A stretch of DNA of 64,000 nucleotides from Zophobihabitans entericus (GTDB taxonomy: Bacteria; Pseudomonadota; Gammaproteobacteria; Enterobacterales; Orbaceae): contig NZ_CP050253.1 in assembly GCF_011745665.1 (NCBI RefSeq), forward strand, positions 1,897,418 to 1,961,417. The letters are read 5' to 3'. This document shows positions 4,834 through 50,269 of this stretch, one piece after another (position 1 is the first letter of the stretch; every line of letters begins with the position of its first letter). The position numbers were made by a program, and so were the translations under genes. Under the pieces are notes generated by a model. That model was not told the origin of the DNA, ran no database searches, and saw nothing but the letters and a program-made list of their open reading frames with translations.

Positions 4834-4893
4834 CAAAAGCTAACTAATAGTGAGAAACTTTTGATTGTTAAAACCTTTCTATCATTACTTAAT

Positions 4894-6147
4894 TTAAAAA
4901 TACGTCTCTACCGCTTCCAGCACATTATACTGCCCATCAACAAAATAGAGCTGACGCCACTTATCAAAGGTAATACAAGGGTGCGAAGTGCCAAAAATTA
5001 AAATATCACCGACCTGCAAATCAACATCCTTACTGTAATGCAGCATAGCATGTTGATCCATAATGTTTTGTGTCTTCATAGTACCTGTAACAAAAGGCAT
5101 TGCCTGACCGTGACGATAATGGGCAATTGGCTGAGGAAGCCCTTCATCAAAAGCAGCATCACGCTTACCAAAACCAATAATCGCTAAATCAGGCTCTGGC
5201 ATAGATTGTACAAACGCACACAGTTCCATGGCTGAAGCTAAATCGCCCTGAATATGGCAGGCAAGTTCACTACGGTTTTTGAGCGCATTATGGGATTGTT
5301 GATATACGCCTTTATCCTGGGTTACGTAGCATCCCGGGCGAATGACATAACGTATATTCTGTCCCAGATTGGCTTGTTGCATTTGCTGGCAAACAAGGTC
5401 ATACCAGACCGAGCCGGCTCCGGTTAAAATAACTTCTTCAGAGTCTGGGAATAAATTTAATTTAATCAAATTGTTAGATGTGTTGATGACACGAGTTAAA
5501 AAGCCATTAATTTTATCAATATCCGTCAGTTCATTTTGACTATGAATTACGCCCTCATAAAATTCGACACCAGACAATTTAAGCCCCGGTAAGGAATGGA
5601 TATATTTTGCCAGCTCGATCGCTTCTGACTCAGAGCGGCAGCCGCATCTGCCTCCTTCAATACCAAGTTCCAGTAACACATTCATCGTTTGTTCTTGTGC
5701 AGCAAAATGGGTTGAAAGCTGTAAAGCATTCCCTTTATTATCTACACAACAAAAAATCTTAGTATTTGACTGTTGTTTGAGTTTTGACACAAATAACATA
5801 TTGGCTTTACCAATCAGCTGATTTGCCATAATGATATTGGTGATACCCGATTCAATAGCAATTTTGGCCTGATAAGCTGTACCCACACCAATTCCCCATG
5901 CTCCGGCTTGTAACTGTTTCTTGAAAATAGCCGGCGTCATAGTGGTTTTACCATGAGGTGCTAAAGAAACCTGACAGGCATTTGTATAATCCTGCATCCA
6001 GCGAATGTTATTATCAAGTATCTGCTCTTTAATCACGACGACGGGTAAGCACACATCTTCATTAAGAATATTGATCTGTCCGTCCGTAGAATGAGACATG
6101 GCCGCGGCTTTATGATCCAGCTTGCCTGATATTAATTGATTTTTCAT
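4894..6147 (-). CDS. PLP-dependent D-amino acid dehydratase/deaminase, DSD1 (D-serine dehydratase-like) family
   Basis: 417 aa. An alanine-racemase-type N-terminal barrel carries the PLP lysine in SLAPHGKTTM (about residue 67). The C-terminal D-serine-dehydratase-like domain has the His-x-Cys metal pair in GTSHPC. Such enzymes remove ammonia from D-configured 2-amino-3-hydroxy acids (D-serine, D-threonine, and probably D-glucosaminate). I chose the start at 6147 because AGAGGG sits 5 bases upstream; an ATG 7 codons earlier lacks a site. It is the last gene of a minus-strand operon with a D-aminoacylase, RidA and ketodeoxy-sugar-acid kinase and aldolase. That context favours a 2-amino-2-deoxy aldonate substrate giving 2-keto-3-deoxy acid plus ammonia. 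Family is clear, substrate inferred. Confidence 0.85.
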   Translation of the reverse strand: MKNQLISGKLDHKAAAMSHSTDGQINILNEDVCLPVVVIKEQILDNNIRWMQDYTNACQVSLAPHGKTTMTPAIFKKQLQAGAWGIGVGTAYQAKIAIESGITNIIMANQLIGKANMLFVSKLKQQSNTKIFCCVDNKGNALQLSTHFAAQEQTMNVLLELGIEGGRCGCRSESEAIELAKYIHSLPGLKLSGVEFYEGVIHSQNELTDIDKINGFLTRVINTSNNLIKLNLFPDSEEVILTGAGSVWYDLVCQQMQQANLGQNIRYVIRPGCYVTQDKGVYQQSHNALKNRSELACHIQGDLASAMELCAFVQSMPEPDLAIIGFGKRDAAFDEGLPQPIAHYRHGQAMPFVTGTMKTQNIMDQHAMLHYSKDVDLQVGDILIFGTSHPCITFDKWRQLYFVDGQYNVLEAVETYF

Positions 6148-45088: not shown

Positions 45089-45565
45089 ATGACAAATAAA
45101 GTTAAAGAATATCGTAAGACTGCAGAACCAATAGCTTCTTCATACCATTCGGATAAGATTTGGCAATTAGCGGGATTCCCTGCTAGTGGTGGTCTTACTT
45201 TAATTCAAGAGTTACAACGTGGTTTATCGGTTGATGTTATTAACCGATTAAATAATGGGTTAAATTTATCCAAAAAATACGTATTAGAGATTACTGGTAT
45301 TAATGAGCGAAATCTGGCACGTCGTAAAAAAACTGATGATCAAAGACTTAACCCGGAAGAGAGTGAAAGAGTTGCGCGTTTAGTTCGTGTCATGGATATT
45401 GCTATTGATCTATTCGATGGTGATAAAGATGCAGCAATTGACTGGTTAAATACACCTGCTATTGCGTTAGGGAACCGTTCTCCTGTAGAGCTACTGGCCA
45501 CAGAAACAGGTGCTCTTGAAGTATCTAATTTGATCGGACGTCTTGAGCATGGAGTTTTTTCGTGA
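45089..45565 (+). CDS. Xre/MbcA/ParS family antitoxin (DUF2384)
   Basis: 158 aa. It has the N-terminal helical Xre-like part (LIQELQRGLSVDVINRL; LNLSKKYVLEITGIN) and the C-terminal ParS/MbcA toxin-binding domain (AIDWLNTPAIALGNRSPVEL, about residues 112-131). Such antitoxins neutralise RES toxins and repress their operon. The stop overlaps the start of the toxin gene by 4 bases (GTGA), typical of tightly coupled toxin-antitoxin pairs. The ribosome site is GGTGA. Confidence 0.9.
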   Translation: MTNKVKEYRKTAEPIASSYHSDKIWQLAGFPASGGLTLIQELQRGLSVDVINRLNNGLNLSKKYVLEITGINERNLARRKKTDDQRLNPEESERVARLVRVMDIAIDLFDGDKDAAIDWLNTPAIALGNRSPVELLATETGALEVSNLIGRLEHGVFS

Positions 45566-46023
45566 AACTCTACCGTATTGTGAAGACGGAACATATCGCC
45601 TCAGCCTGGTCTGGTTATGGGGCTCAGCAGTTTGGTGGCCGATGGAATCATCCGGGTCGGGCAATGGTATATACTGCCAGTAGTATTTCTTTAGCAATGC
45701 TTGAAATTTTGGTTCATCTGCAAAAAAGTCAGTTTATGTCGTCTTATTCTTTATTAAGTATTGAGATCCCTGATAAGAAGTTACTAAATTTGGATAGTGA
45801 TAAATTAAGCCGTAAATGGAATACTTATCCGGCACTGGATGAAACTATGGACGTTGGTGATAAGTGGCTGGAAGAGGGGAAAAGTGTTGGATTAATTGTA
45901 CCCTCTGTGATTATTCCACTGGAAAAAAATGTAGTACTCAATCCTGCTCATCCTGATTTTTCAGGTTATATTAAAGAGCAAACAATACAGCTTGTCTCTT
46001 TTGATTCGAGACTAATTAAGTAA
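45562..46023 (+). CDS. RES domain toxin (NAD+-degrading type)
   Basis: 153 aa with GTG start, GGAG 7 bases upstream. The RES-domain Arg (FGGRWNHPG, about residue 27) and Glu (LAMLEILVH, about residue 50) are present, with conserved Ser residues later. Characterised RES toxins (MbcT, Res) destroy NAD+ and stop growth until neutralised by the cognate Xre antitoxin. It appears intact in length. It sits at the edge of an accessory stretch. Confidence 0.9.
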   Translation: MKLYRIVKTEHIASAWSGYGAQQFGGRWNHPGRAMVYTASSISLAMLEILVHLQKSQFMSSYSLLSIEIPDKKLLNLDSDKLSRKWNTYPALDETMDVGDKWLEEGKSVGLIVPSVIIPLEKNVVLNPAHPDFSGYIKEQTIQLVSFDSRLIK

Positions 46024-46328
46024 TCTGTTTTAAGTAAAAATTCTTCTCTTTATCTATTAAATTAATAGTTATCTATTTATTCATTAATGGATTATATTTA
46101 ATCTTATACTGAATGAAATTTACACAATTTAGTATGTAAAGGTTTAGTAAAATAGCATTTTCAGTGCTATTTGTTACTAAATAAAGTTTGATAATGGATT
46201 TATTAAATGGTTTCTAATAGACAAGGATGAAATACTTCAATTATCTCTGGCGTTATCAGTAGGATTATGCTGATAGGAGATATAAGTCCTATTGTTCATT
46301 CTTGTTCAATGGCTAAAAGGAGGTTTCT
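46024..46328. other. AT-rich intergenic with small hairpins
   Basis: This 305-bp region has no supported gene. An 8-bp inverted repeat AAATAGCA/TGCTATTT (46150-46172) may end the toxin transcript, but it lacks a full U-tract. TATCAG...CTGATA (46254-46275) lies in the probable leader of the next gene, which has a strong AAGGAGG ribosome site. Confidence 0.4.
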
Positions 46329-47072
46329 ATGTTTACGTTCAAAAAAACAATCATCGCATTAAGTTTATCATTACTATTCCCTCTCTCTTTTGCACAAGCA
46401 GCAAATGAAGGTGAAATTATTAATCCGGCTCTGGACTCTGCTGTTGTCATTAAAGGTGATAAACCAGTTGTTCCTGAAAAAAGCGAAGCACTATACTTTG
46501 TCAGTAAAACTGAAGATGGTAAGTTAAATATCATCTATTCTGACTTCAATAAAACTGACGCGAATCCAAATAATTATGTGATTGAGTTAAAACAAGTTGA
46601 GGGCATGTATGTATTCCCAAGATATATGCAAAACCCATTTGTTCCTTATGAAGTTGTAACTCATCGAGGTTATTATCCAAATGTAGTTGATTTAGATAAA
46701 GATGCGGTAAAAATTGCTGCAGAAAAAGGCGCGTTTGCTTATCAAATTTCCAGAGTAGAGGAAGTTAACTCTGACGGTGAGAATATCGATATGGATATTT
46801 CTCTTTATAATGCTGACGCTCCACTTAGACATATGGGTTCTGTTTATTACACTTATAATGGCCATACTGCACGTAAATTACCTTTGGGTATGATTAAACA
46901 AATGAACCCAACCAGTACTTTTTCTTTTGATACGGATGCATCGCTTGGCTATGCTTTAGAATTTGAAGCCGCTAAACAAGCTATTGATCGTGGAGCAAAA
47001 GCCTTCTATATCTCTAATATTCAGGAGTCTTCATCAAGTGTTCGCAAAACAGTTGATGTAAATATCTACTAA
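46329..47072 (+). CDS. Exported protein with two DUF1471-like (YdgH/BhsA-type) repeats
   Basis: 247 aa. A signal peptide (MFTFKKTIIALSLSLLFPLSFAQA, quoted in part) ends near residue 24. Two segments, about residues 130-165 and 217-247, share the pattern alanine-rich helix, GA-aromatic-x-I, then an alternating strand ending in D(I/V)xxY (KGAFAYQISRVEE; RGAKAFYISNIQE). That resembles DUF1471 domains of periplasmic stress proteins such as YdgH. The function is unknown. AAGGAGG precedes the ATG, suggesting strong translation. Confidence 0.6.
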   Translation: MFTFKKTIIALSLSLLFPLSFAQAANEGEIINPALDSAVVIKGDKPVVPEKSEALYFVSKTEDGKLNIIYSDFNKTDANPNNYVIELKQVEGMYVFPRYMQNPFVPYEVVTHRGYYPNVVDLDKDAVKIAAEKGAFAYQISRVEEVNSDGENIDMDISLYNADAPLRHMGSVYYTYNGHTARKLPLGMIKQMNPTSTFSFDTDASLGYALEFEAAKQAIDRGAKAFYISNIQESSSSVRKTVDVNIY

Positions 47073-47087
47073 TTTATGTATATAGTG

Positions 47088-47117
47088 AAAAGGCCATGTT
47101 AAGCCATGGCCTTTTTT
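47088..47117 (+). terminator. Terminator after the YdgH-like gene
   Basis: AAAAGGCCATG-TTAAG-CCATGGCCTTTTTT is an 11-bp stem with a U-tract, 16 bases after the stop codon. Confidence 0.93.
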
Positions 47118-47230
47118 ATTAGTCATTATTTTGTATCTGTGTTCAAAAAATGCCTCTCTTTATCATATCTTGTTTGCTTTCAGTATATAAAATCGATAAG
47201 ATTTAGCCTCAATAATTGCAGGGTCTGACT

Positions 47231-47767
47231 ATGAGAAAAACATTATTAACCATCGCGTTGTGTGCATTTATCATTTTTACTTCTTTTAGTATGTACATTA
47301 TGGCGACAGTAAAAAATAAAGATGTACTGAACTATAATATGGTTAATGCCTGTTCTCAGATTATTCAAGAAAAAAGTTCAGCCACAGATTCATGGAATAT
47401 TTCAGATGTGAAAGTTTCATCGAATGTAACGTGGAGTAAGGATGAGATTAATAAATTCCTTAATCTTGAGCATAAAAATGTCAGTATGGATCAAGATATA
47501 GGCTTTAGTGATTTTTATAACACGACAGTATCTTTTAACTTTTCAATTGATAGTATCCAAGATTCTAAGGTAAGCTCTGCACAGTGTGAGATATTAACTT
47601 ATCTGCAAGGTCGAACTTATAAAGTAGAGCGTTTAGACAGCCTTATGATTAATGAAGCAATATTGATCATGACAAGTGATGAATTAGCTTCTGTAAATAA
47701 TATTTTTATTGAAGCTCAGGAAAATAACGTAATGAATCAATTTAGAGCTTATTTCAATAAATATTAA
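47231..47767 (+). CDS. Hypothetical protein with N-terminal membrane anchor
   Basis: 178 aa from the ATG at 47231 (AGGG 8 bases upstream; a TTG five codons earlier is open). One hydrophobic segment (about residues 5-25) suggests an inner-membrane anchor or uncleaved signal. The rest is polar with two cysteines (about residues 39 and 122) and is predicted periplasmic. I recognise no family. It stands alone between terminators. Confidence 0.6.
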   Translation: MRKTLLTIALCAFIIFTSFSMYIMATVKNKDVLNYNMVNACSQIIQEKSSATDSWNISDVKVSSNVTWSKDEINKFLNLEHKNVSMDQDIGFSDFYNTTVSFNFSIDSIQDSKVSSAQCEILTYLQGRTYKVERLDSLMINEAILIMTSDELASVNNIFIEAQENNVMNQFRAYFNKY

Positions 47768-47785
47768 TGATATAAGGTAAATACT

Positions 47786-47812
47786 GAAAGACTACAAATT
47801 TGTGGTCTTTTC
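47786..47812 (+). terminator. Terminator after the anchored hypothetical protein
   Basis: AAAGACTAC-AAATTT-GTGGTCTTTT forms a 9-bp stem with one G-U wobble and a short U-run, 18 bases after the stop. Confidence 0.75.
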
Positions 47813-47914
47813 ATTACTAGGTGATTAGAGATTTAGCGAATATGAATCTTAACCTTTTAATTAAATTGAGTATTTTAAAGATGTTATTTTAATCTTAATT
47901 TAATTACGTATTAC

Positions 47915-47943
47915 TTGACTCATTTACGTTTTTACTGTATATT
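47915..47943 (+). promoter_or_regulatory. Sigma70 promoter upstream of tandem terminators
   Basis: TTGACT (47915-47920), a 17-bp spacer, then TATATT (47938-47943): each hexamer has one deviation. The start site would be about 47950. Two intrinsic terminators lie between it and the next open frame. Confidence 0.6.
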
Positions 47944-47987
47944 TAAACAGTAGAAATGCCATTTTTGCGTATATTACAACAATCAGA

Positions 47988-48008
47988 AGACCGCGAAAGC
48001 GGTTTTTT
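47988..48008 (+). terminator. First tandem terminator (before the tail-fibre-like gene)
   Basis: ACCGC-GAAA-GCGGT with a GNRA-type tetraloop is followed by a run of seven Ts. It would end a transcript of about 60 bases from the promoter at 47915. Confidence 0.85.
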
Positions 48009-48032
48009 TATGCCTAAAATTTAGTATTTACT

Positions 48033-48055
48033 TAACCGCCTTTTGGCGGTTTTTT
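48033..48055 (+). terminator. Second tandem terminator, next to the ribosome site
   Basis: AACCGCC-TTTT-GGCGGTT followed by TTTT. The ribosome site GGAG of the next gene begins about 5 bases after the T-run, so termination here or read-through decides expression. Confidence 0.85.
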
Positions 48056-48068
48056 ATTGGAGAAAAAT

Positions 48069-48902
48069 ATGACAGTAAGACAAAATACAAATAACTTGGT
48101 TCCATCGAATAATATGAAAGATTTAAATGATAACACCATTATTCTTGATGAATGGGTAAATAGTGAAAATGATTATACTCAGGATCGTTTTGGTAATACG
48201 TTTGAAACACGAAAAAAGGTTTTGGCTGATTTGAGTAGTACAGTAAAAGAAATAAAAGAAGGGACAGGGTTTTTACCAATATCTGGTGGAGAACTATCCG
48301 GTAACTTAAATGTACAAGGTAAGTTACTACAAGAGAACGTTGATGTTTTAACAAAAAATGGTGGGGAAATTTCGGGTGATATTAATATTATTAGAAATAT
48401 GACTATATCAGGTAATACAAATGTGAATGGTAATTTAAAACAAAATGGGGTTAATGTATTTACTGAAGATGGTGGAGTTGTCACTCGTAGAACAAACTTT
48501 ACAGATAAACTACAGCAGAATAGCCATGATGTGTTGACTTCTGAGTCTTTTCCCCAGCAGTTACTTTATCCAAATGGAACGCCAGAAGCGCCGGATCAGC
48601 TTGTTGTTAATAATAGGGTATCTATTCCAAATCCATTGGGTGATTTAAGTAATACAAGAGTACAAGTTGAAATATTAGTTAATGGACAATGGGGAACATA
48701 TAATAATGTAGTGAGGTCAATTGCTGAGGGCACAGGTTCATCGAGAGGGATAGGAATCAAAATTGAACTTGTTGAAAGCGACATTGTTATTCAGACAGGC
48801 ACATCAGGATTACTTCAACCGTCAGCGGTGGATGGAAATCCATTTGGCTTAACAGTAGCAATTAATACCGTTCCTTATCGCGTAAGAGTTTTTAAGGTAT
48901 AA
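48069..48902 (+). CDS. Orphan phage tail-fibre-like protein
   Basis: 277 aa from the ATG at 48069 (GGAG 6 bases upstream; an in-frame TTG at 48057 is disfavoured). The N-terminus (NNLVPSNNMKDLNDNTIILDE ... DRFGNTFETR, in part) is the kind seen at the virion-binding end of tail fibres and spikes. Residues about 75-165 hold imperfect repeats of the type GGELSGNLNVQGKL / GGEISGDINI. The C-terminus is beta-rich. No other tail gene is adjacent, so it is a phage remnant or a domesticated fibre. Confidence 0.7.
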   Translation: MTVRQNTNNLVPSNNMKDLNDNTIILDEWVNSENDYTQDRFGNTFETRKKVLADLSSTVKEIKEGTGFLPISGGELSGNLNVQGKLLQENVDVLTKNGGEISGDINIIRNMTISGNTNVNGNLKQNGVNVFTEDGGVVTRRTNFTDKLQQNSHDVLTSESFPQQLLYPNGTPEAPDQLVVNNRVSIPNPLGDLSNTRVQVEILVNGQWGTYNNVVRSIAEGTGSSRGIGIKIELVESDIVIQTGTSGLLQPSAVDGNPFGLTVAINTVPYRVRVFKV

Positions 48903-48908
48903 ACTAAT

Positions 48909-48930
48909 AAGCCAGTTTTAACTGGCTTTT
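48909..48930. terminator. Terminator shared by the tail-fibre-like gene and acetyltransferase
   Basis: AAGCCAGT-TTTA-ACTGGCTTTT is an 8-bp stem that overlaps the stop codon of the convergent acetyltransferase gene. Confidence 0.8.
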
Positions 48931-49505
48931 ATAACTATTTCATTCAATTTCTTTGTATATACTACACAATTATCTGGTAGAGATTTATCTACAAATGATA
49001 GTGCACCAATGCGAACATTGTCACCAATGACAAATTCACCTCCTAGTATTACACTATTTGCGCCAGCATAAAAATTATTGCCTATTGTTATTTTTATGTG
49101 TTGTTCTCTATGCTTCATTCCAATTGTTACACCTTGTAATAATGTTGCGTTATCACCAATCTCAACCTTGTCATTAATAACTATTCCGCGTGTATGTGCA
49201 AGATGTAAGTTTTTCCCTATTTTTGCGCCAAGCAATATTTCAGTATTGTATTTCATCAACAGGTCACAGTTAATTGATAACGCAATATTCTTATACTTTT
49301 GATTTTCTGTTAAATACATTTCATTAGCCAGTCTCCACCAAAACCAATAAAATTCTTGTCTAGATTTTCGTTTTGACTCTTTAAGCCTGCGTAAAATTCT
49401 ACGCCATTTAAATGATTTGTTTTTGATAATTTCAGATTGCCAAAATTCTTTTAATTTAGTTGTGTCATGTGTCATTAAAAAAATAAGTATGTGAATATAT
49501 TTCAT
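48918..49505 (-). CDS. Hexapeptide-repeat acetyltransferase (serine O-acetyltransferase-like)
   Basis: 195 aa from the ATG at 49505 (AAGGAG 5 bases upstream). A helical N-terminus of about 85 residues is followed by a left-handed beta-helix of hexapeptide repeats (IGKNLHLAHTRGIVINDKV; IGDNATLLQGVTIG) with the catalytic His region LHLAH. It is CysE-like in the helix but shorter. Similar genes modify surface polysaccharides or ride on phages. Beside a tail-fibre-like gene, O-antigen or capsule modification is plausible, but this is inference. Confidence 0.75.
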   Translation of the reverse strand: MKYIHILIFLMTHDTTKLKEFWQSEIIKNKSFKWRRILRRLKESKRKSRQEFYWFWWRLANEMYLTENQKYKNIALSINCDLLMKYNTEILLGAKIGKNLHLAHTRGIVINDKVEIGDNATLLQGVTIGMKHREQHIKITIGNNFYAGANSVILGGEFVIGDNVRIGALSFVDKSLPDNCVVYTKKLNEIVIKAS

Positions 49506-49539
49506 AGATACTCCTTTATCGTTTTTTTTATTGTACATA

Positions 49540-49565
49540 AAAAAGCCCTGATTAACAGGGCTTAA
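49540..49565 (-). terminator. Minus-strand terminator after a gene relic
   Basis: Read on the minus strand, AAGCCCTG-TTAAT-CAGGGCTT is followed by TTTTATG. It lies just downstream of the degraded frame at 49570-49692, the only candidate for the gene it once served. Confidence 0.8.
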
Positions 49566-49569
49566 TTAA

Positions 49570-49692
49570 TTAAAATTCATTTAATGCTTGAGTTCTAATC
49601 ATAGGTAAAACATTTTTCCAGTTTGTAGCTTGTTCGCCTTGATTATTCGCAATAATATGCTTGGTTTCCCTCTCAATAATAACTAGTGTCGT
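49570..49692 (-). pseudogene. Short open frame remnant of a lost gene, possibly phage
   Basis: A 40-codon minus-strand frame ending in NWKNVLPMIRTQALNEF and a stop, followed at once by a good terminator. It has no start codon with a ribosome site, and the frame is closed by a stop just upstream. This looks like the 3' end of a gene whose front has been deleted. I do not recognise the family. Confidence 0.4.
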
Positions 49693-49980
49693 TTAGTTCT
49701 TCTGTGAGAATATGAATAGTTATATGAGTTTTAATTGTGATCATCGGTTGATGATAAATGACTGTTAAAAGTGACTAATAAGAGAGAGTGATTTTTGGGA
49801 TATGGCTCGGAAAAATTACCAGTAATTTTCATTTGTGGATAACTGGGAAATGTGAATAAATCTGTTGATATTAAAATATTGGTAGCGGGGAATAATACAA
49901 CTGGATATTACAAGTTTATTACAAGTGTGATTTTTGATGTTTATTTTGAGCTGTAGATTGTTGATTTTATTGGTATTTGA
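49693..49980. other. Gene-free AT-rich segment with DnaA boxes and short repeats
   Basis: It contains TGTGGATAA (49834-49842) and TGTGAATAA (49851-49859), which both fit the DnaA box TTWTNCACA on the minus strand and are 17 bp apart. It also has an 18-bp palindrome AAAATTAC-CA-GTAATTTT (49812-49829) and a direct repeat ATTACAAGT at 49907 and 49918, with a looser third copy just before. No gene is seen. Confidence 0.45.
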
Positions 49981-50055
49981 TGGCTGGGGTACGAGGATTC
50001 GAACCTCGGAGTGGCGGGATCAAAACCCGCTGCCTTACCGCTTGGCTATACCCCA
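49981..50055 (-). tRNA. tRNA-Gln (anticodon TTG)
   Basis: A 75-nt cloverleaf with encoded CCA end, anticodon loop TT-TTG-AT in the stem GCGGG/CCCGC, and T-loop GGTTCGAATCC. It is last in a Met-Leu-Gln tRNA operon. Confidence 0.97.
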
Positions 50056-50081
50056 TCAGAGGTAAGAAGTTTAAGATAAAA

Positions 50082-50166
50082 TGGTGCGGGTGGAGAGACT
50101 TGAACTCACACGCCTCGCGGCGCCAGAACCTAAATCTGGTGCGTCTACCAATTTCGCCACACCCGC
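50082..50166 (-). tRNA. tRNA-Leu (anticodon TAG)
   Basis: An 85-nt class II tRNA with long variable arm and encoded CCA. The anticodon loop TT-TAG-GT sits in the CCAGA/TCTGG stem. It is the middle gene of the operon, as leuW is in E. coli metT-leuW-glnU. Confidence 0.97.
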
Positions 50167-50192
50167 ATTCTATCTTACTACTAACTTTTTAA

Positions 50193-50269
50193 TGGTGGCT
50201 ACGACGGGATTCGAACCTGTGACCCCATCATTATGAGTGATGTGCTCTAACCAACTGAGCTACGTAGCC
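50193..50269 (-). tRNA. tRNA-Met (anticodon CAT, elongator)
   Basis: A 77-nt cloverleaf with encoded CCA and anticodon CAT in the stem CATCA/TGATG. The acceptor stem GGCTACG/CGTAGCC pairs fully, including the first base pair, so it is an elongator rather than an initiator tRNA. It is first in the operon. Confidence 0.96.

Follow-up and report, generated by a model that had tools for sequence, protein, structure and literature searches.

The late operon of lambdoid phages is activated by Q through antitermination, and terminators inside such operons are already in print, with a role given as "not known" in the phage L study (PMC8022706). Two roles for termination are proposed there, namely a smaller amount of downstream mRNA or the halting of spurious transcription. 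The phage L case resembles the locus described here in that a Rho-independent terminator lies within a unit of structural genes for which one late promoter and Q-type antitermination are expected; it differs in that its terminator stands at the end of the procapsid module, whereas here the site is the tip/fibre junction of Orbaceae phages and the copy under study is probably a remnant without its operon. Lambda stf (orf-401) is also comparable, having a perfect 9-bp hairpin with a T-run that ends 16 nt before the fibre ATG, but this gene follows lom and not a tip gene directly, its stem is unrelated and its fibre has another type of N-terminus. Terminators that lie within or border a mobile or phage-like operon and are passed by a modified polymerase are described for Tn916, with canT, for conjugation operons that combine terminators with antitermination (PMC11658703, PMC8955417) and for the Caulobacter GTA cluster with GafZ (PMC11150451); the antiterminators are other ones in each case, and the material covered in these sources is unrelated to tail-fibre genes. 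For SfIV, terminators are drawn in a figure (PMC3851460). In the literature covered, which included Gilliamella prophages and was mostly other than subscription literature, no published statement that terminators precede fibre genes was found.

The window analysed here is a stretch of 64,000 nucleotides of the Zophobihabitans entericus genome, and its features are shown in Table 1 together with hairpins of phage lambda. Two strong predicted intrinsic terminators stand back to back before a tail-fibre gene, in agreement with the preliminary description, which had claimed a GAAA-capped terminator followed by a second one close to the ribosome site. Each hairpin had a folding energy of about -12 kcal/mol (z -4.2 and -4.4 against shuffles). 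Dinucleotide shuffles of 47915-48068 produced at least two terminators in 2/2000 cases and at least one in 55/2000, and on the terminator scanner the two hairpins were the only plus-strand terminator pair within 80 nt across the whole window. An internal promoter between the terminators and the gene, which would speak against expression by read-through, was not found, the best match from 48000 to the ATG being only 5/12. The arms of the two hairpins are able to cross-pair because both share ACCGC/GCGGT, and this pairing is the one adopted in the minimum-energy fold of 47980-48071; a reading of this form as an antiterminator fold was set aside, since the pairing follows from the shared motif.

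Table 1. Coordinates of the features before and in the orphan fibre gene of the window, and of comparable hairpins in phage lambda
Feature	Position	Strand	Basis or remark
Sigma70-like match TTGACT-17-TATATT	47915..47943	+	10/12 match, chance level
Possible relic of tail-tip gene end; frame E-D-R-E-S-G-F-F-M-P-K-I-stop	47986..48024	+	Comparison with G003; 21-mer specificity
Terminator hairpin 1 (predicted), GAAA loop	47988..48005, T-run to 48009 (7 T)	+	Sequence, folding, shuffles
Spacer between hairpins, like the sequence after the terminator at the lysis-cassette head of relatives	48003..48033	+	Sequence comparison
Terminator hairpin 2 (predicted)	48034..48051, T-run to 48055; stem end 17 nt before ATG	+	Sequence, folding
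Ribosome binding site GGAGA	48059..48063	+	Sequence
Orphan tail-fibre gene, 277 aa, intact frame, ATG at 48069	48069..48902	+	Profile and sequence comparison
Lambda hairpins, T-rich tail, 16-29 nt upstream of E, FI, J, lom, orf-401	L300 6099-6116, 7163-7180, 15461-15484, 18920-18935, 19612-19633		Loose scan

The "good sigma70 promoter" described upstream of the hairpins did not hold up. The pattern exists, but it is indistinguishable from chance: its score was equalled in 178/1000 local shuffles of the AT-rich stretch 47768-47990, and a 4-kb scan gave 16 sites of 10/12 grade against 19.3 +/- 4.8 in shuffles. A DNA search of 60 genomes gave no convincing relatives of the leader upstream of 47973, the sole match starting there being weak and in an AT-rich stretch (47848-47893, E 5e-4). 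With gathering scores as the threshold, Rfam returned three tRNAs only for the whole window and no match in the leader. The idea that a promoter-driven leader RNA of 60 bases could itself be a product is left unsupported by these three results. They also make it quite improbable that the site is a gene for a small RNA of about 60 nt, started at 47915 and ended by hairpin 1 in the manner of small RNAs from E. coli prophages, with the fibre gene merely lying downstream. Terminator-ended prophage small RNAs are known from two studies (PMC4104026, PMC13192938), and the site does have a promoter-like match, a leader that is short and a good terminator whose T-run counts 7 T; it shares the terminator with such RNAs, but neither a supported promoter nor a conserved short RNA.

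Profile comparison showed that residues 4-116 of the fibre protein match PHROG 17635 'tail fiber protein' (E 1.7e-5), while no Pfam family was above cut-off and a scan of viral contigs with the whole protein gave no matches. Over its N-terminal ~65 residues the protein matches the fibre that six prophage-like loci of Orbaceae encode downstream of their tail-tip (J-like) gene, and residues 1-65 contain 14 invariant positions common to the window fibre and eight phage or prophage fibres (9 sequences). From residues ~155-165 onward the protein matches tail proteins in 22/24 of the phage records found (30-34% identity), with 21 of those 22 belonging to Yersinia phages and the remaining two of the 24 matching the fibre N-terminus. 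A protein match to the fibre was present in 10/44 family genomes, the window's own counted. Judged by these matches, the gene is phage-derived. It has the phage-shared N-terminal module expected of a siphoviral tail fibre, but in the window it does not lie right after a tail-tip gene, and no tip-gene profile match was obtained within 46000-50000; the earlier naming as an orphan tail-fibre-like gene is thus sound. A moron is a gene carrying its own promoter and terminator. No promoter of its own was found reading into the fibre gene, as the promoter match precedes both terminators and only the 5/12 match follows them.

The equivalent place is bounded by lpdA, a tRNA-Met-Leu-Gln-Gln cluster and cca in two related genomes (G002 and G006), and no fibre DNA match was obtained between those flanking genes in either. 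Since the same flanks occur there without it, the fibre gene is, on this comparison, an insertion or a leftover beside the tRNA cluster. No convincing attachment-site repeat was found at the site, the tRNA-Gln ends having also been tried. Among the neighbours, the tRNA-Gln-Leu-Met cluster of the window (49981-50269, minus strand) has one tRNA-Gln against two in G002 and G006. A hexapeptide-repeat acetyltransferase (48918-49538, minus strand) belongs to the phage-associated family PHROG 2154 (E 9e-52), and G002 carries a DNA relative of it in the corresponding position; a pair of an Xre/MbcA-type antitoxin and a RES-domain toxin lies at 45089-46023 (plus strand).

In all six other genomes (6/6), the homologous fibre directly follows a tail-tip gene of ~840 residues, which is PHROG 469 (E 1.8e-152, one copy scanned). 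A hairpin with a T-run was present in 5/6 of these tip/fibre junctions, at a distance of 22-30 nt from the stem end to the fibre ATG; in the sixth (L047) the hairpin is kept and the T-run is broken. The hairpin contains the last codons and stop of the tip gene in G004, G008 and G066, the tip frame continues through it and ends at the fibre start in G003, and it lies 19 nt past the tip stop in G002. An intrinsic terminator between two late structural genes is accordingly predicted in five of the six relatives, and the window keeps the fibre side only. At the tip/fibre junctions of the related loci, a relaxed Rfam search had no matches. Elsewhere, in a Frischella prophage-like locus (L045 7146-7229, plus strand), Rfam matched sRNA-Xcc1 (RF02221) at 64.5 bits, above the gathering score of 53. 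The preliminary description had held double hairpins before single tail genes to be worth comparing across prophages. The terminator at the junction recurred in the five Orbaceae loci, but the double hairpin did not prove a special device, and the usual pattern in these sequences is single terminators before several late genes rather than a double hairpin before single fibre genes. In G002 (L049, reverse complement 4885-4944), a tandem double terminator stands 27 nt upstream of a PHROG 384-like gene and gives a precedent for the double hairpin of the window.

The 21-base pattern of hairpin 1, GACCGCNAAAGCGGTTTTTTT, occurred three times in 44 family genomes (window, G003 and G066), each time directly before a homologous fibre gene. 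The 21 bases are identical in the window and G003, and the frame over them reads E-D-R-E-S-G-F-F in the window and Y-D-R-E-S-G-F-F in G003. Because of this specificity for the junction and the in-frame residues shared with G003, hairpin 1 is most probably a relic of the tip-gene end. No similarity to tip-gene codons was found upstream of ~47986, so that the relic reading draws on the 21 bases and a few residues. The core of hairpin 2 is present in 32/44 family genomes and is a common terminator, and its sequence alone therefore says little; a phage-specific hairpin 2 sequence was dropped as a candidate on this ground, and a frame started just after the core at few of the 30 loci kept. A DNA match to E. 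coli phage ep3 was likewise set aside, as it is confined to the terminator and the adjoining start region downstream.

In three prophage loci (L301 and L302, both on the reverse strand at ~1400-1560, and L304 at ~1480-1640), a terminator is followed by ATACC(C/T)AAATTTTGAGTATTCACTCAA and then by an inverted repeat, the arms of which vary among the loci yet still match (GGTAGC/GCTACC, GACAGC/GCTGTC). This element precedes lysis genes in the three loci, with the holin confirmed for L301 only. The spacer of the window resembles the first part of the element, and the gapped pattern gave 4 matches in 44 genomes. The likeness of the spacer after hairpin 1 to a lysis-cassette leader tells against deriving the site from a tip/fibre junction.

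The genome also contains a second phage locus (G000:C1 ~998000-1011000; L187 4019-17005), in the order repressor, Q, holin, endolysin, major tail protein, chaperone, tape measure, minor tail proteins, J and fibre. Its J gene is lambda-type (PHROG 31) and is followed by the fibre gene, before which AACCGCC-TGCTAG-GGCGGTTTTTTATT is found with the stem ending 23 nt before the ATG. One Q-type gene (PF06530 / PHROG 79) was found in the genome, ~10 kb upstream of the fibre of this cluster; the check for a phage antiterminator proposed at the outset was thus positive, but the gene belongs to this separate lysis-tail locus. Because no head gene was present among the frames listed and proteins scanned (19 kb), the cluster looks headless and tailocin-like. 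From such a repressor-Q-lysis-tail cluster, together with a frame intact across 277 codons, one might suppose that the host has retained the orphan fibre for its own use, for instance to serve this cluster as an exchange fibre. We regard this as very improbable: the cluster fibre begins with a lambda-stf-like module and the N-terminal module of the orphan fibre differs from it, there is no promoter after the terminators beyond the 5/12 match, and no assembly gene adjoins the orphan fibre.

The matches of the fibre N-terminus to six prophage-like loci, and the confinement of the hairpin 1 pattern to this junction, make it likely that the site is a decayed piece of a siphoviral prophage, in which a tip/fibre junction and a whole fibre gene are stranded among host genes with the terminators kept and the tip lost. 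Under this remnant reading hairpin 1 is most likely a terminator that overlapped the tip-gene end, and hairpin 2 would be a second terminator directly before the ribosome site of the fibre. In the related phages such terminators would be placed within the late tail operon, ahead of selected genes. Ordinary polymerase, including stray transcription in the lysogen, is expected to stop at the hairpins, and Q-antiterminated polymerase from the late promoter is expected to pass them, so that the fibre would be made only in the lytic cycle. The orphan has neither a late promoter and the remaining operon nor a supported promoter after the terminators, and is therefore probably silent or leaky. The earlier claim that the gene can be expressed only by read-through or antitermination, or is silent, fits with the terminators predicted at five of six junctions in relatives and in the genome's own Q-bearing cluster.

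A terminator before the fibre gene is not a universal trait, and many other phages lack it. Among viral contigs with the fibre module (N-module alignment), a terminator adjoined the start in 4/47, against 0/199 other frame starts in those contigs, which is a low estimate because taking the longest frame per gene may hide a hairpin behind a too-early start. There were 74 contigs of the PHROG 469 type, of which 11 were left out of the set and 2 were passed over, their match ending before the end of the tip gene; the remaining 61 gave 46 distinct junctions, and 8/46 were marked by the scanner, one of them (L158) weak-tailed. The L108 junction, outside these eight, was also terminator-bearing once its start choice was corrected. 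Junction hairpins occur in Erwinia endophytica (L054) and in Hafnia phage Pocitis76 as well, and a large PHROG 469 group with a 39-nt gap has none. An integrase was present in 3/9 contigs with the hairpin and 3/21 without, and a link of the hairpin with lysogeny was dropped, as these counts do not show one convincingly.

Terminators were also found at other late-gene junctions of the six tip-fibre loci and the genome's own cluster. They precede the major tail gene by 23-24 nt in 3/3 found, the PHROG 384-like gene by 19-27 nt in 5/6 (in the sixth locus the contig stops 24 bases past that frame) and the fibre gene in 6/7; none precedes the tip gene (0/6), the tape measure (0/3) or a PHROG 396-type gene (0/5) in the same loci. 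When the first 22.6 kb of lambda were scanned loosely, 20 terminator-like sites were obtained, of which some fall within genes and some are weak-tailed. With 25 gene starts considered, six of the sites stand 16-35 nt upstream of a start (nu1, E, FI, J, lom, orf-401) against ~0.7 expected, with p ~4e-5 relative to a uniform scatter, a background that ignores intergenic composition. A stricter tail rule kept 10 sites, four of them before genes (E, FI, lom, orf-401). For stf, a hairpin lies 16-19 nt before the ATG in 16/16 distinct upstreams, to which the best 80 of 525 loci collapse; these are close lambdoid relatives and not independent.

Spacing across 18 junctions with 16 hairpins, a sample biased by choosing most junctions for carrying a hairpin, was 20.2 +/- 5.1 nt from stem to ATG against 15.8 +/- 14.8 nt from tip stop to stem. 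The hairpin position thus tracks the downstream gene more than the upstream gene, as the tighter spread to the ATG indicates. This spacing could be read to mean that the hairpins are mainly RNA devices, transcribed through under Q, which shield the upstream mRNA piece at its 3' end and leave the next ribosome site free, with termination incidental; several junctions leave a gap of ~56 nt free for a hairpin that is nonetheless placed by the ribosome site. We hold this to be possible but unlikely, for every hairpin in the comparison keeps a T-run, which mere stability does not need, short gaps by themselves favour a site near the ribosome binding site, and the sample is biased. A more general proposal is offered tentatively: the late tail operon may be cut into segments by terminators before the major tail, tip-complex and fibre genes, 16-30 nt from the start codon, each acting as a Q-gated lock for one structural step and insulating a swappable fibre cassette, with unrelated stems rebuilt in separate lineages from Orbaceae phages to lambda.

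Structures of this kind are usual in the late operons of temperate tailed phages, and the one in the window is stranded in a remnant. The possibly new element is a positional rule that places hairpins with unrelated stems 16-30 bases ahead of particular late start codons; the recurrence at the same few junctions, the near-fixed distance to the start codon and the unrelated stems suggest selection. The copy in the window is itself a fossil, and what matters more is the comparison across phages, which gives exact sites in phage lambda.
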